A stretch of 64,000 nt of DNA. Origin: Bacteroidota bacterium (GTDB taxonomy: Bacteria; Bacteroidota; Bacteroidia; UKL13-3). Under the pieces are notes generated by a model. That model did not search any database. It saw only the letters and a list, made by a program, of their open reading frames with translations, and was not told where the DNA came from. Each line of letters opens with the position of its first letter. The stretch's first letter is position 1. This document shows, piece by piece, positions 28,098 to 50,557 of the stretch. A program made the translations under genes and the position numbers. The stretch is taken from contig CANGVA010000005.1 of the NCBI GenBank assembly GCA_947457395.1, forward strand, positions 62,001 through 126,000, given 5' to 3'.

Positions 28098-29570
28098 CTA
28101 TTTTTTACTGTAGTTTGGAGCTTCCTTGGTGATAGTAATATCATGTGCGTGACTTTCTTTAACACCAGCGCCAGTAATTTTAATAAACTTAGCCCGCTGC
28201 AATGCTTTGATATCTTTAGCTCCCAAATAGCCCATTCCTGCGCGCAAACCACCTACAAATTGATAAATTACATCTTTTAAACTGCCTTTAAATGCAACCA
28301 TACCTACAATCCCTTCAGGTACCAGTTTTGAAATTTCTTCCTCTGCATCTTGGAAATAGCGATCTTTACTTCCCTCCTTCATGGCCTCTATGCTGCCCAT
28401 ACCCCTGTAAGATTTAAACTTACGGCCTTCGTAAATAATGGTTTCTCCGGGAGATTCCTCAGTACCTGCAAAAATACCACCGCTCATTACCGTACTGGCA
28501 CCGGCAGCAAGTGCCTTTACCACGTCTCCACTATAACGGATACCTCCGTCTGCAATTACAGGCACACCTGAACTCTTAATAGCTTTAGCTGCTTCATAAA
28601 CAGCTGTTAGTTGAGGAACGCCAATACCTGCGATTATACGTGTGGTACAAATGGAACCGGGACCCACCCCAACCTTAACCGCATCAACACCTGCATTAAC
28701 AAGCGCCTTGGCGCCTTCACCTGTGGCAACATTACCTGCAACGATATCAAGATTGGAGAATAGCTTTTTCATGCGCTTAACCTCAGTTAATACACCTTTT
28801 GAGTGGCCATGAGCAGTATCAATAATCACAAGATCAGCTCCGGCTTTTTCCAAAGCTGCAATTCTATCAGCTGTTTCGGCCGTTACACCAACAGCCGCAC
28901 CAACAAGCAATCGGCCATGTTTATCTTTACATGCATTTGGATTATCCTTTAATTTTAAAATATCTTTATAGGTAATTAAGCCAATGAGTTTCCCTTGTTT
29001 ATTAACTACCGGTAACTTTTCAATTTTATATTTCTGTAAAATCAATTCTGCTTTTTTCAAATCCGTTCCTTGCGGTGCCGTAATCAAGTTATCTTTTGTC
29101 ATGATCTCAGTCACCCGCCTATTTAAATTTTTCTCAAAACGTAGATCACGATTGGTTAATATTCCAACCAATTTAAACTGATCATTCACAATAGGAATAC
29201 CTCCGATTTTGTTGTCATTCATAAGCCTGTGGGCTTCCTTTAGTGTAGCATTCATGGGCAGAATAACCGGATCCAGAATCATCCCACTCTCGCTTCTTTT
29301 AACCCTCCTTACCTCTTCTGCTTGCCTTTCTATACTCATGTTTTTATGCAATATTCCTACACCACCCTGTTGCGCCATGGCAATAGCCAAACGCGACTCT
29401 GTAACAGTATCCATAGCAGCTGACAGCATTGGAATATTGATGCGAATGTTTCGGGTTAATTGGGTTGAAGTATTTACATCACGCGGTAAAACTTCTGAGT
29501 AGGCAGGCAAGAGGAGTACATCATCAAATGTGAGTCCTTCACCAAAAAATTTAGAGCGGTCGTTTATCAT
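28098..29570 (-). CDS. guaB: IMP dehydrogenase
   Basis: A 490-residue enzyme that oxidises IMP to XMP with NAD, the committed step of GMP synthesis. The TIM-barrel begins with [21 protein letters not shown] and is interrupted by two CBS domains (about residues 95-210, with GGIPIVND and IEKLPVVN). The catalytic loop is [11 protein letters not shown] with Cys near 306, and the flap region [11 protein letters not shown] follows further on. Length is standard. The leader is notable: a consensus promoter is followed by a perfect inverted repeat that ends directly against the ATG. Confidence 0.97.
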
Positions 29571-29597
29571 GGCAAATAACAGGAATGATTATTTGCC
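29571..29597. repeat. Perfect inverted repeat filling the guaB leader
   Basis: GGCAAATAA (29571-29579), 9-nt spacer, TTATTTGCC (29589-29597). The last base touches the guaB ATG and the first base is 3 nt from the -7 element. It could be a 5' mRNA hairpin or an operator. Confidence 0.85.
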
Positions 29598-29600
29598 GTG

Positions 29601-29629
29601 CAAATGTAGCACAAAACAACAGATTACAA
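29601..29629 (-). promoter_or_regulatory. guaB promoter
   Basis: On the minus strand: TTG (29629-29627), 18-bp spacer, TACATTTG (29608-29601). Both boxes and the spacing fit the Bacteroidota consensus. The predicted transcript start falls at the edge of the inverted repeat. Confidence 0.7.
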
Positions 29630-48600: not shown

Positions 48601-49534
48601 TTGGATAAACTCTTTTTTCCCAAATCCGCGTTAACACATACCATAACAAAACCATGAGCAATGCACTTGCAGTGTTCATATACCATGGAGCGATATAATT
48701 GCTTCTTAATATTTCCGGACCTATTTCATCCCAACGAAAATAACCATTAAAAGTAGCCATGGTATTATTAAGCAAATGAAAAAACACAGCAGGCCAGATG
48801 CTGCCTGAACCAATAACTAAATATCCTAAACAAACTCCTAAAACCATGCGTGGCACGAATCCATAAAACTGGCCATGAAAGGCGCTAAATAAAACAGCAC
48901 CTATCCAGATTGAAATATGCCTGTTTTTAAAACAATAAAACATCAGTTGTAGCAAAGCGCCTCTGAAAAGAAACTCTTCTGCTATTGCAGGAATTAATGC
49001 TGTTACAATTAATGTTACAACCAGCGAGCTTCCATTTTCGCTGCTGATGAATGCCTTGGTAAGTTCAATCGCTGCATTTTCAGCGGCCCTTAATTTTGCC
49101 TCGAGTAAAGACCAGGATTCTGGCAGTGAAACAGCTTCATTTACCTTAACCAACCAACCAATAGATGGGGCAGAAATCAGATATAAACAGGGGGCCATTA
49201 GCCAAACAACTGATTTCCCTTTACGGTTGGCTTTCAGAAAATCTACAGGTGCTGCACCGAATGAGGTGGGGAAATAAAGTGCCGGCAATAAAAAGCCTCC
49301 CAATGCAGAAAGAGACTGGCTAAATTGCATGGCTCTTAGTACTTGCGTATTATTACGCATCTCTGATATTAATTGTGGATTAGAAAACAAATCTATCCCA
49401 AAAAGAAAGCGCGAGAGAAACATGCCCACCCCCAAAAAGGTGAGTGAAAAAACCAGTACCATACCGCCCAGAATAAACAATCGGGAAACAAAAAAGAGCA
49501 CCGGATGTTGGTTGTTAGGAAGGTTTTGAATCAT
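48590..49534 (-). CDS. CPBP family intramembrane metalloprotease
   Basis: A 314-residue polytopic membrane protein with the CPBP (Abi/CAAX) motifs: the glutamate pair and Arg in AIAEEFLFRGALL, the FSAFHGQFYGF motif with His, and HLLNNTMA. These supply the residues of the family's intramembrane protease active site. Substrates are unknown. The start is the ATG at 49534; a TTG at 49555 is less likely. It heads the CPBP-DUF2007-cdsA-SRPBCC unit, divergent from dusB across 27 bp. Confidence 0.88.
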   Translation of the reverse strand: MIQNLPNNQHPVLFFVSRLFILGGMVLVFSLTFLGVGMFLSRFLFGIDLFSNPQLISEMRNNTQVLRAMQFSQSLSALGGFLLPALYFPTSFGAAPVDFLKANRKGKSVVWLMAPCLYLISAPSIGWLVKVNEAVSLPESWSLLEAKLRAAENAAIELTKAFISSENGSSLVVTLIVTALIPAIAEEFLFRGALLQLMFYCFKNRHISIWIGAVLFSAFHGQFYGFVPRMVLGVCLGYLVIGSGSIWPAVFFHLLNNTMATFNGYFRWDEIGPEILRSNYIAPWYMNTASALLMVLLWYVLTRIWEKRVYPNGE

Positions 49535-49539
49535 TTGCG

Positions 49540-49560
49540 TACTTTTGCCGCGCAAATATA
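49540..49560. promoter_or_regulatory. Face-to-face -7 elements of dusB and CPBP gene
   Basis: Plus: TACTTTTG (49540-49547), 14 bp before the dusB ATG. Minus: TATATTTG (49560-49553), 18 bp before the CPBP ATG. Both are exact TAnnTTTG matches in a 27-bp spacer and the TTTG ends flank a small palindrome (TTTGC-CGC-GCAAA, 49544-49556). Confidence 0.5.
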
Positions 49561-49561
49561 C

Positions 49562-50557
49562 ATGGTAAAGATTGATAAAATAGAATTAGGCGAATTTCCG
49601 CTTTTGCTTGCGCCTATGGAAGATGTGAGTGATCCTCCATTTAGGGCAGTATGCAAAGTAAACGGGGCCGACCTGATGTATACGGAATTTATCTCATCGG
49701 AAGGATTAATCAGAGATGCCATAAAAAGCAAAAAGAAACTGGAGATTTTTGATTATGAGCGCCCAATTGGCATACAGATATTTGGCGGTGATGAAGAATC
49801 TATGGCAATGGCAGCGCAGATTGTAGATGCAACCGAGCCTGATTTGCTTGATATTAATTTTGGTTGCCCTGTTAAAAAAGTAGTTTGTAAAGGTGCCGGA
49901 GCCGGTATCTTAAAAGATTTACCCCAGATGGTTAAAGTAACACAGGCAGTTGTTAAATCAACCAAACTACCTGTAACTGTTAAAACAAGATTAGGTTGGG
50001 ATGATAACAGCAAAAATATTGAAGAAGTGGCAGAGCGATTGTTTGATGTAGGCATCAAAGCGCTAACTATACATGGTCGTACGCGTGCGCAGTTATATAA
50101 AGGCGAAGCCGACTGGAGTTTAATTGCCAAGGTTAAGAACAATCCGCGGATACAAATACCCATTTTTGGCAATGGCGATATTGATTCACCCGAAAAAGCT
50201 CTAGCATATAAAAATAAATATGGTGTTGATGGCATTATGATTGGCCGCGCAGCAATAGGCTATCCGTGGATTTTTAATGAAATTAAACACTATCTAAAAA
50301 CAGGAGCCCACTTAGCAAGTCCATCCATCGAGCAGCGTGTGGATGTTTGCCGCCAGCATTTAAACCACTCTATTGAGTGGAAAGGTGAAATTGTAGGTAT
50401 TTTTGAAATGCGCAGACACTATACGCATTATTTCCGCGGATTTGAAAATTTTAAACCTTTTAGAACCTTGCTGGTAACCTTGCAGACTAAGGATTCTTTA
50501 AATCAGGTGTTAGATGAAATTGCCTTGCATTATGCAGGTATTGAAACTACCGTTTAA
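49562..50557 (+). CDS. dusB: tRNA-dihydrouridine synthase
   Basis: A 331-residue flavoenzyme reducing uridine to dihydrouridine in tRNA. It has APMEDVSDPPFRAVC at the N-terminus, NFGCPVKKV with the catalytic Cys, TVKTRLGWDD, the FMN-binding HGRTRAQ, and GNGDI and GIMIGRAAIGYPWIF in the barrel. The ATG at 49562 starts the family region. The dusB letter is by closest pattern, not by search. Its 3' end overlaps the radical SAM gene by 4 bp. Confidence 0.93.
   Translation: MVKIDKIELGEFPLLLAPMEDVSDPPFRAVCKVNGADLMYTEFISSEGLIRDAIKSKKKLEIFDYERPIGIQIFGGDEESMAMAAQIVDATEPDLLDINFGCPVKKVVCKGAGAGILKDLPQMVKVTQAVVKSTKLPVTVKTRLGWDDNSKNIEEVAERLFDVGIKALTIHGRTRAQLYKGEADWSLIAKVKNNPRIQIPIFGNGDIDSPEKALAYKNKYGVDGIMIGRAAIGYPWIFNEIKHYLKTGAHLASPSIEQRVDVCRQHLNHSIEWKGEIVGIFEMRRHYTHYFRGFENFKPFRTLLVTLQTKDSLNQVLDEIALHYAGIETTV

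Follow-up and report, generated by a model that had tools for sequence, protein, structure and literature searches.

The guaB leader and its promoter

The window, by which we mean the whole stretch of 64,000 nucleotides of DNA analyzed here, carries on its minus strand the gene guaB for IMP dehydrogenase. Positions 29571-29629 hold the guaB leader, from the right arm of a predicted hairpin through a weak −33 TTG. The features, in window coordinates, are

28098-29570, minus strand: guaB coding sequence (an open reading frame), IMP dehydrogenase, 490 aa
29570-29568, minus strand: guaB start codon ATG, directly after the right arm
29579-29571, minus strand: hairpin 3′ arm TTATTTGCC, with pairing kept in the family leaders
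29588-29580, minus strand: loop TCATTCCTG, 9 nt between the arms
29597-29589, minus strand: hairpin 5′ arm GGCAAATAA, with the predicted +1 a G at 29596 (or 29597)
29608-29601, minus strand: −7 promoter box TACATTTG, which fits the TAnnTTTG consensus of the Bacteroidota primary sigma factor
29629-29627, minus strand: weak −33 element TTG, 18 bp upstream of the −7 box, found by sequence inspection

Read 5′ to 3′ on the minus strand, the order is TTG, 18 bp, TACATTTG, CAC, GGCAAATAA, TCATTCCTG, TTATTTGCC, and ATG. A preliminary description of this locus presented the leader as mostly a perfect inverted repeat with its second arm at the ATG, and expected the transcript to start near the first arm. 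Both points stand. The arms GGCAAATAA and TTATTTGCC are perfectly complementary over 9 nt and N9 apart, together they span 29597-29571, and TTATTTGCC adjoins the guaB ATG. Repeat scoring gives 12-nt arms at 92% instead, because CAC/ATG adds two further matches, and the first and last bases of the loop TCATTCCTG could form an extra U-G pair. As for the start of the transcript, the TAnnTTTG box lies at −12 to −5 in F. johnsoniae and F. psychrophilum (PMC6847099; PMC9723704), which places the predicted +1 at the second G of GGCAAATAA (29596), a G that is invariant in the comparisons below. The −33 element is often poorly defined in Bacteroidota (PMC6847099).

The predicted RNA fold of the window's leader has a free energy of −12.6 kcal/mol and a z-score of −1.85. 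This is only modestly better than shuffled sequences; the case for the hairpin is carried by comparative evidence.

As a separate observation on −7 boxes, the sequence TACTTTTGCCGCGCAAATATA at 49534-49564 of the window includes two of them, overlapping and on opposite strands (TACTTTTG forward, TATATTTG reverse). They serve two genes that diverge, one a tRNA-dihydrouridine-synthase-like ORF and the other a membrane-protein-like ORF, whose ATGs follow the boxes after 14 and 18 nt, and the two promoters should be mutually exclusive.

Conservation in the family and in the class Bacteroidia

A GuaB protein match is found in 57 of the 58 genomes sampled in the family, and we have read the guaB starts of 49 family genomes, including the window's own. 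All 49 leaders present the same succession of a −7-like box, 4 nt, GCAAATAA or a near variant, a variable loop, the pairing arm, and the ATG, and the right arm ends 0-1 nt before the ATG. The variants include GGCAAATAATA, which pairs with TATTGTTTGCT via G-U pairs (L003 and others), GGCAAGTAA with an A-to-G change opposite a U (L026), and an inner ACC/GGT in place of A-U pairs (L045-L047). The −7 box TACATTTG is conserved together with the hairpin, both in these leaders and in the GTDB-wide matches described below.

Outside the family, we have examined guaB leaders from 57 Bacteroidia genomes in 44 families. A mechanical search controlled by shuffled leaders reports a hairpin at p ≤ 0.006 in 28 of them, and 7 more are recognized by eye or at a weaker p (L064, L068, L070, L108, L111, L114, and L117). 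Another 6 are apparently leaderless, their ATG following the −7 box at a distance of exactly 3 nt (L081, L082, L083, L110, L113, and L115), and about 16 of the 57 have neither the hairpin nor the leaderless arrangement. At the leaderless guaB of L082 there is also an upstream in-frame ATG GAA ATG. The leaders read from other classes of the phylum (L089-L093, L095, and L097-L106) show no such arrangement.

The arms found in the class are diverse. They include the pairs GAATTTTA/TAAAATTC, GCAATT/AATTGC, GCAATTATTT/AAATAATTGC, GCAACTT/AAGTTGC, GCAAACT/AGTTTGC, GCAAACGA/TCGTTTGC, and GGCAAAAGG/CCTTTTGC, as well as CATATA/TATATG, in which the start codon is within the stem; the stem takes in the ATG in L108 and L117. 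In nearly all leaders outside the family, the right arm ends 0-8 nt before the ATG; in L064 the distance is about 14 nt. In L068 the GCAAACGA/TCGTTTGC hairpin keeps its usual place at the promoter, but the annotated ATG lies about 40 nt further on, and either the start is misassigned or that lineage has a longer leader. Leaders with the same arms have them 3-16 nt apart, and in others the spacing reaches 47 nt; the loop sequence is also free. On a GuaB tree, with modest branch support, the arm types cluster and have been replaced several times, and GCAAT arose at least twice. Judged from these leaders, the hairpin is often present before guaB in the class Bacteroidia, where its sequence drifts while the pairing and the first G are kept.

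Covariation and the G-C clamp

How much of this pairing is covariation? We have analyzed a set of 31 hairpin-bearing leaders from 28 families, with 12 different 7-nt left arms, in which nine stem positions are paired, the first of them just outside the invariant G. At the seven inner positions, 98.6% of the pairs are standard, an absolute figure inflated by having picked the rows for their hairpin, versus 66% when the right arms are reshuffled, with a maximum of 80% over 2000 trials. For the covariation score, the observed value is 0.73 versus 0.18 reshuffled (maximum 0.38). The fair tests are this reshuffled control and the per-leader shuffles, neither of which wholly removes the effects of common descent.

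The G-C pairs have a very uneven distribution along the stem. They occur in 30 of the 31 leaders at the invariant G, in 19/31 at the next stem position, and in 10 out of 186 pairs in the six positions beyond. The A-U interior of the stem may partly reflect A+T-rich leaders.

As far as comparative sequence analysis can tell, we have a real stem, kept by covariation across the class, fixed relative to the −7 box, and near the ATG. The preliminary description had proposed aligning the guaB upstream regions of relatives in search of compensatory changes, and such changes are what we find. The arms are kept within the family and swapped for compensating arms across the class, which indicates that the element acts as RNA. 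And since both loop and arm sequence vary across the class, there is little for a ligand or a protein to read.

These data also bear on the possibility of a DNA operator, in which a dimeric repressor would bind the palindrome across the transcription start. A 9-bp palindrome without mismatches, placed at the start point and strongly conserved in the family, is what such a site could look like. But the arm spacing is continuous from 3 to 16 among same-arm carriers and goes up to 47 elsewhere, the arms covary to unrelated sequences (twelve 7-nt arm sequences), the ATG is inside the stem in L108 and L117, and there is no second site in the host genome. A spacing that varies freely from 3 to 47 nt excludes an ordinary operator, and we regard the operator as very improbable.

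Specificity of the hairpin for guaB

To see how specific the element is for guaB, the pattern GCAAATAA-N3..22-TTATTTGC[CT]ATG was scanned against 84,980 GTDB species genomes, with at least 119 matches. Among the 119 matches listed, 107 are a guaB start, and the −7 box is exactly 4 nt upstream of GCAAATAA in every one of those 107 (92 have the full TAnnTTTG, the others are one base off). Carriers among the matches listed include Pedobacter, Mucilaginibacter, Dyadobacter, Spirosoma, Pontibacter, Runella, Chryseolinea, Flexithrix, and Fulvivirga. The remaining 12 matches listed come mostly from unrelated phyla, and none of the 12 has the −7 box.

Within the 2.54-Mb host genome, GCAAATAA-N3..20-TTATTTGC has a single occurrence, before guaB, and the pattern TANNTTTG-N4-GCAAA has ten. 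We have also scanned for hairpins between the −7 box and the ATG in 1597 ORFs, covering 2.03 Mb (80%) of the host genome; in 405 of these ORFs, a −7 box lies no more than 80 nt from a candidate start. The guaB leader obtains the top score, 10.7, and the next is 8.0. That second-best hairpin is an artefact, as its ATG is an internal one; L158, which had also scored high, resembles a terminator belonging to the gene before it. The leaders of guaA, purA, and purD, also in the 80% scanned, have no hairpin. In that portion of the genome, guaB is the only gene found with a hairpin leader of this predicted kind.

The expectation that the same arms might precede other purine genes is not borne out in the host genome. 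The sole suggestive lookalike is in the purD operon, where the leader of a gene for an ABC transporter that immediately precedes purD (L129, 1826-1900) has a GGCAAA...TTTGCC that resembles the hairpin. We take it as accidental, because its right arm coincides with the −7 box of that very gene and relatives have not kept it.

A search of Rfam (Rfam 15) with the guaB leader gives no match at E-values up to 5, and guaB has no entry in the text of a list of structured RNAs from 2010 (PMC2864571). A literature search of open-access papers found no description of a guaB leader hairpin.

Could the hairpin be there by chance, or as a by-product of A+T-rich leaders? The z-score of a single fold, only −1.85, would allow it. 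But a box spacing that is fixed in 107 of the 107 guaB matches listed and in 0 of the 12 others, together with the covariation and the uniqueness in the host genome, leaves this explanation with next to no credence.

Another model is a trans-acting regulator. Here an RNA-binding protein, IMPDH itself or another, would bind the hairpin and repress translation. There are reports of IMPDH binding nucleic acids, which favors the idea, and the arms are well conserved within clades (GCAAATAA) beyond what pairing alone demands. On the other hand, the arms change wholesale between clades, the loop is free in sequence and in length (3-47 nt), and a second target gene is not found in 80% of the host genome. 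We consider such a regulator improbable.

The first nucleotide and the stability of the hairpin

The region where transcription would start has a very particular composition. In the 107 guaB matches listed, position 5 after the −7 box is always a G, position 4 is a G in 98, and positions 3-5 are never an A. Among control promoters of the host genome, only 25 of 167 have a G at position 4 or 5 and are free of A at positions 3-5. From these leaders, a start of transcription on the invariant G is well supported.

The predicted hairpin depends strongly on that G. The mean predicted stability is −7.7 kcal/mol for transcripts starting at the G versus −2.8 for those starting at the next A, 1-3 nt later, with a median difference of 4.8. 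As an example, the window's guaB leader is predicted to go from −6.8 to −1.9 kcal/mol when the start moves from G to A. Four leaders (L055, L066, L111, and L125) are predicted to be fairly stable even without the 5′ G; their loops are long or have inner structure, up to 47 nt, and they are possible exceptions to a start-site model.

Regarding how easily the start could move, it is well established that the choice of start site can respond to nucleotides (PMC5730371 and references therein). Scrunching measurements in E. coli give a cost of 1.7 kcal/mol for an alternative start 2 nt downstream (PMC5730371), and alternative starts may therefore be rare. Regarding the effect on translation, a start-proximal structure of −5.2 kcal/mol in Prevotella bryantii cut protein about fivefold, and a hairpin of −9 kcal/mol placed 20 nt upstream gave no such cut (PMC3155529). 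Put together with the predicted energies, these data suggest that the form starting at G should be poorly translated, and the form starting at A freely. By analogy with these measurements, it is well supported that the folded hairpin would impede ribosome loading on the guaB mRNA, which does not have a Shine-Dalgarno sequence.

A proposed start-occluding hairpin controlled by the first nucleotide

The constants of the element are the spacing to the box, the +1 G, the clamp at the base, the A-U interior, and the closeness to the ATG. The simplest account of all of them, and one that draws on neither of the variables (loop and arm sequence), is a hairpin that occludes the start codon and depends on the first nucleotide transcribed. 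In this model, the first base of the stem, a G, would also be the first of the guaB transcript, whose 5′ UTR would be essentially one hairpin up to the start codon. RNA polymerase may also start on an A 1-3 nt downstream. When GTP is plentiful, transcription would start on G, the hairpin would form, and guaB translation would be low. When GTP is scarce relative to ATP, transcription would start on A, and the mRNA, having no G-C clamp, would not form the hairpin and would be translated. The net effect would be that GTP feeds back negatively on the pathway that makes it, with neither a protein regulator nor an aptamer involved. A +1 G alone would raise guaB with GTP; the hairpin would invert the sign and turn it into feedback. 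For the leaderless forms, the choice of start would decide whether the mRNA carries its AUG, and in those lineages this arrangement may stand in for the hairpin.

We infer the GTP sensing, and with it the purine response of the guaB leader. For the model as a whole, that is, a 5′-terminal start-occluding guaB mRNA hairpin whose formation is set by the first G and that provides GTP feedback via start choice, our support is tentative, somewhat short of an even chance. The general version of the model, in which across the class Bacteroidia a G or an A as first nucleotide would decide between the presence or not of a start-blocking hairpin (or of the AUG) and so give GTP feedback on IMP dehydrogenase, is possible, but we hold it as rather doubtful.

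Two other roles for the same RNA structure have to be weighed. One is that of a 5′-end stabilizer, where the paired terminal nucleotide would shield the guaB mRNA from pyrophosphohydrolase and 5′-dependent ribonucleases. The predicted +1 is paired in all representatives, the stem is at the extreme 5′ end, and conservation is limited to pairing, as expected of a stabilizer. However, a stabilizer has no need to be placed 0-8 nt before the ATG, and the initiation region should stay open. It also leaves unexplained the confinement of the G-C pairs to the first positions, given that a stronger stem would serve better, as well as the occurrence at guaB only. We find a stabilizer unlikely, though it deserves some weight.

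The preliminary description offered three options, a start-blocking hairpin, a 5′-end stabilizer, and a DNA operator. The differing arms and the 3-47 nt spacing contradict the operator, and we favor start blocking over stabilization because of the proximity to the ATG, the Prevotella data (PMC3155529), and the presence of the G-C clamp only at the 5′ end.

The other role is a constitutive translational brake, setting a fixed low translation of guaB or responding to temperature or RNA helicase activity, with no purine sensing. Start-proximal structure readily inhibits translation in Bacteroidetes (PMC3155529), the predicted stability is moderate in most leaders (about −5 to −10 kcal/mol), and no ligand site is visible, all of which would suit a brake. 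But a weak promoter or a weak initiation region would do the same without a stem conserved class-wide, and the strict +1 G, the A-free start window, and the position of the clamp go unexplained. We judge a constitutive brake unlikely as well, and give it limited weight.

Relation to known systems

In pyrC, a 5′-terminal hairpin forms depending on which of the adjacent start nucleotides is used, and it hinders translation. This control by start-site selection in enterobacteria, of pyrC (and pyrD), was reportedly worked out by Liu and Turnbough in 1994 and Sorensen in 1993 (both cited in PMC5730371). The resemblance to a start-occluding guaB hairpin is considerable. Both concern a nucleotide-biosynthesis gene and involve no regulator protein or aptamer; the guaB hairpin also takes in the first transcribed nucleotides, for the predicted start, and overlaps or abuts the initiation region; and it is also predicted to be lost with a start a few nt downstream, with about four leaders that stay stable. 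The differences are that the guaB case would involve GTP, a Bacteroidota-type promoter, no hidden Shine-Dalgarno, and a stem that abuts the ATG itself, and that for guaB, known here from sequence, the start switching and the translational effect are proposed by analogy.

The ompA leader of E. coli has a 5′ stabilizing stem-loop that leaves the ribosome-binding region open. The guaB stem is likewise at the extreme 5′ end with its predicted first nucleotide paired, but there is little or no open ribosome-binding region downstream of it.

In Firmicutes, control of promoters by the initiating nucleotide (iNTP) couples transcription to the ATP/GTP balance through the +1 purine (PMC11953324). The identity of the +1 purine matters in the guaB model too, but whereas a +1 G by itself would raise guaB at high GTP, the guaB hairpin could reverse the sign. 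Finally, like the structured-RNA candidates and riboswitches of Bacteroidota (PMC2864571; Rfam 15), the guaB element is a cis element in a 5′ leader found by covariation. None of those listed is the guaB leader, and the guaB element, unlike them, does not have an aptamer-like core.

Significance

GTP synthesis is entered through IMP dehydrogenase, and to our knowledge there is no known purine regulator for guaB in Bacteroidota. By analogy, the guaB leader hairpin may be a variant of the 5′-terminal attenuating hairpins that depend on the start site. A class-wide covarying hairpin whose constants are a 5′ G, a clamp at the base, and a place before the ATG would rank among the simplest cis-regulators known. 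GTP sensing in these bacteria becomes directly testable in cultured hosts such as Pedobacter, Dyadobacter, Spirosoma, and Pontibacter, and the guaB leader would offer a tunable leader for Bacteroidota genetics.
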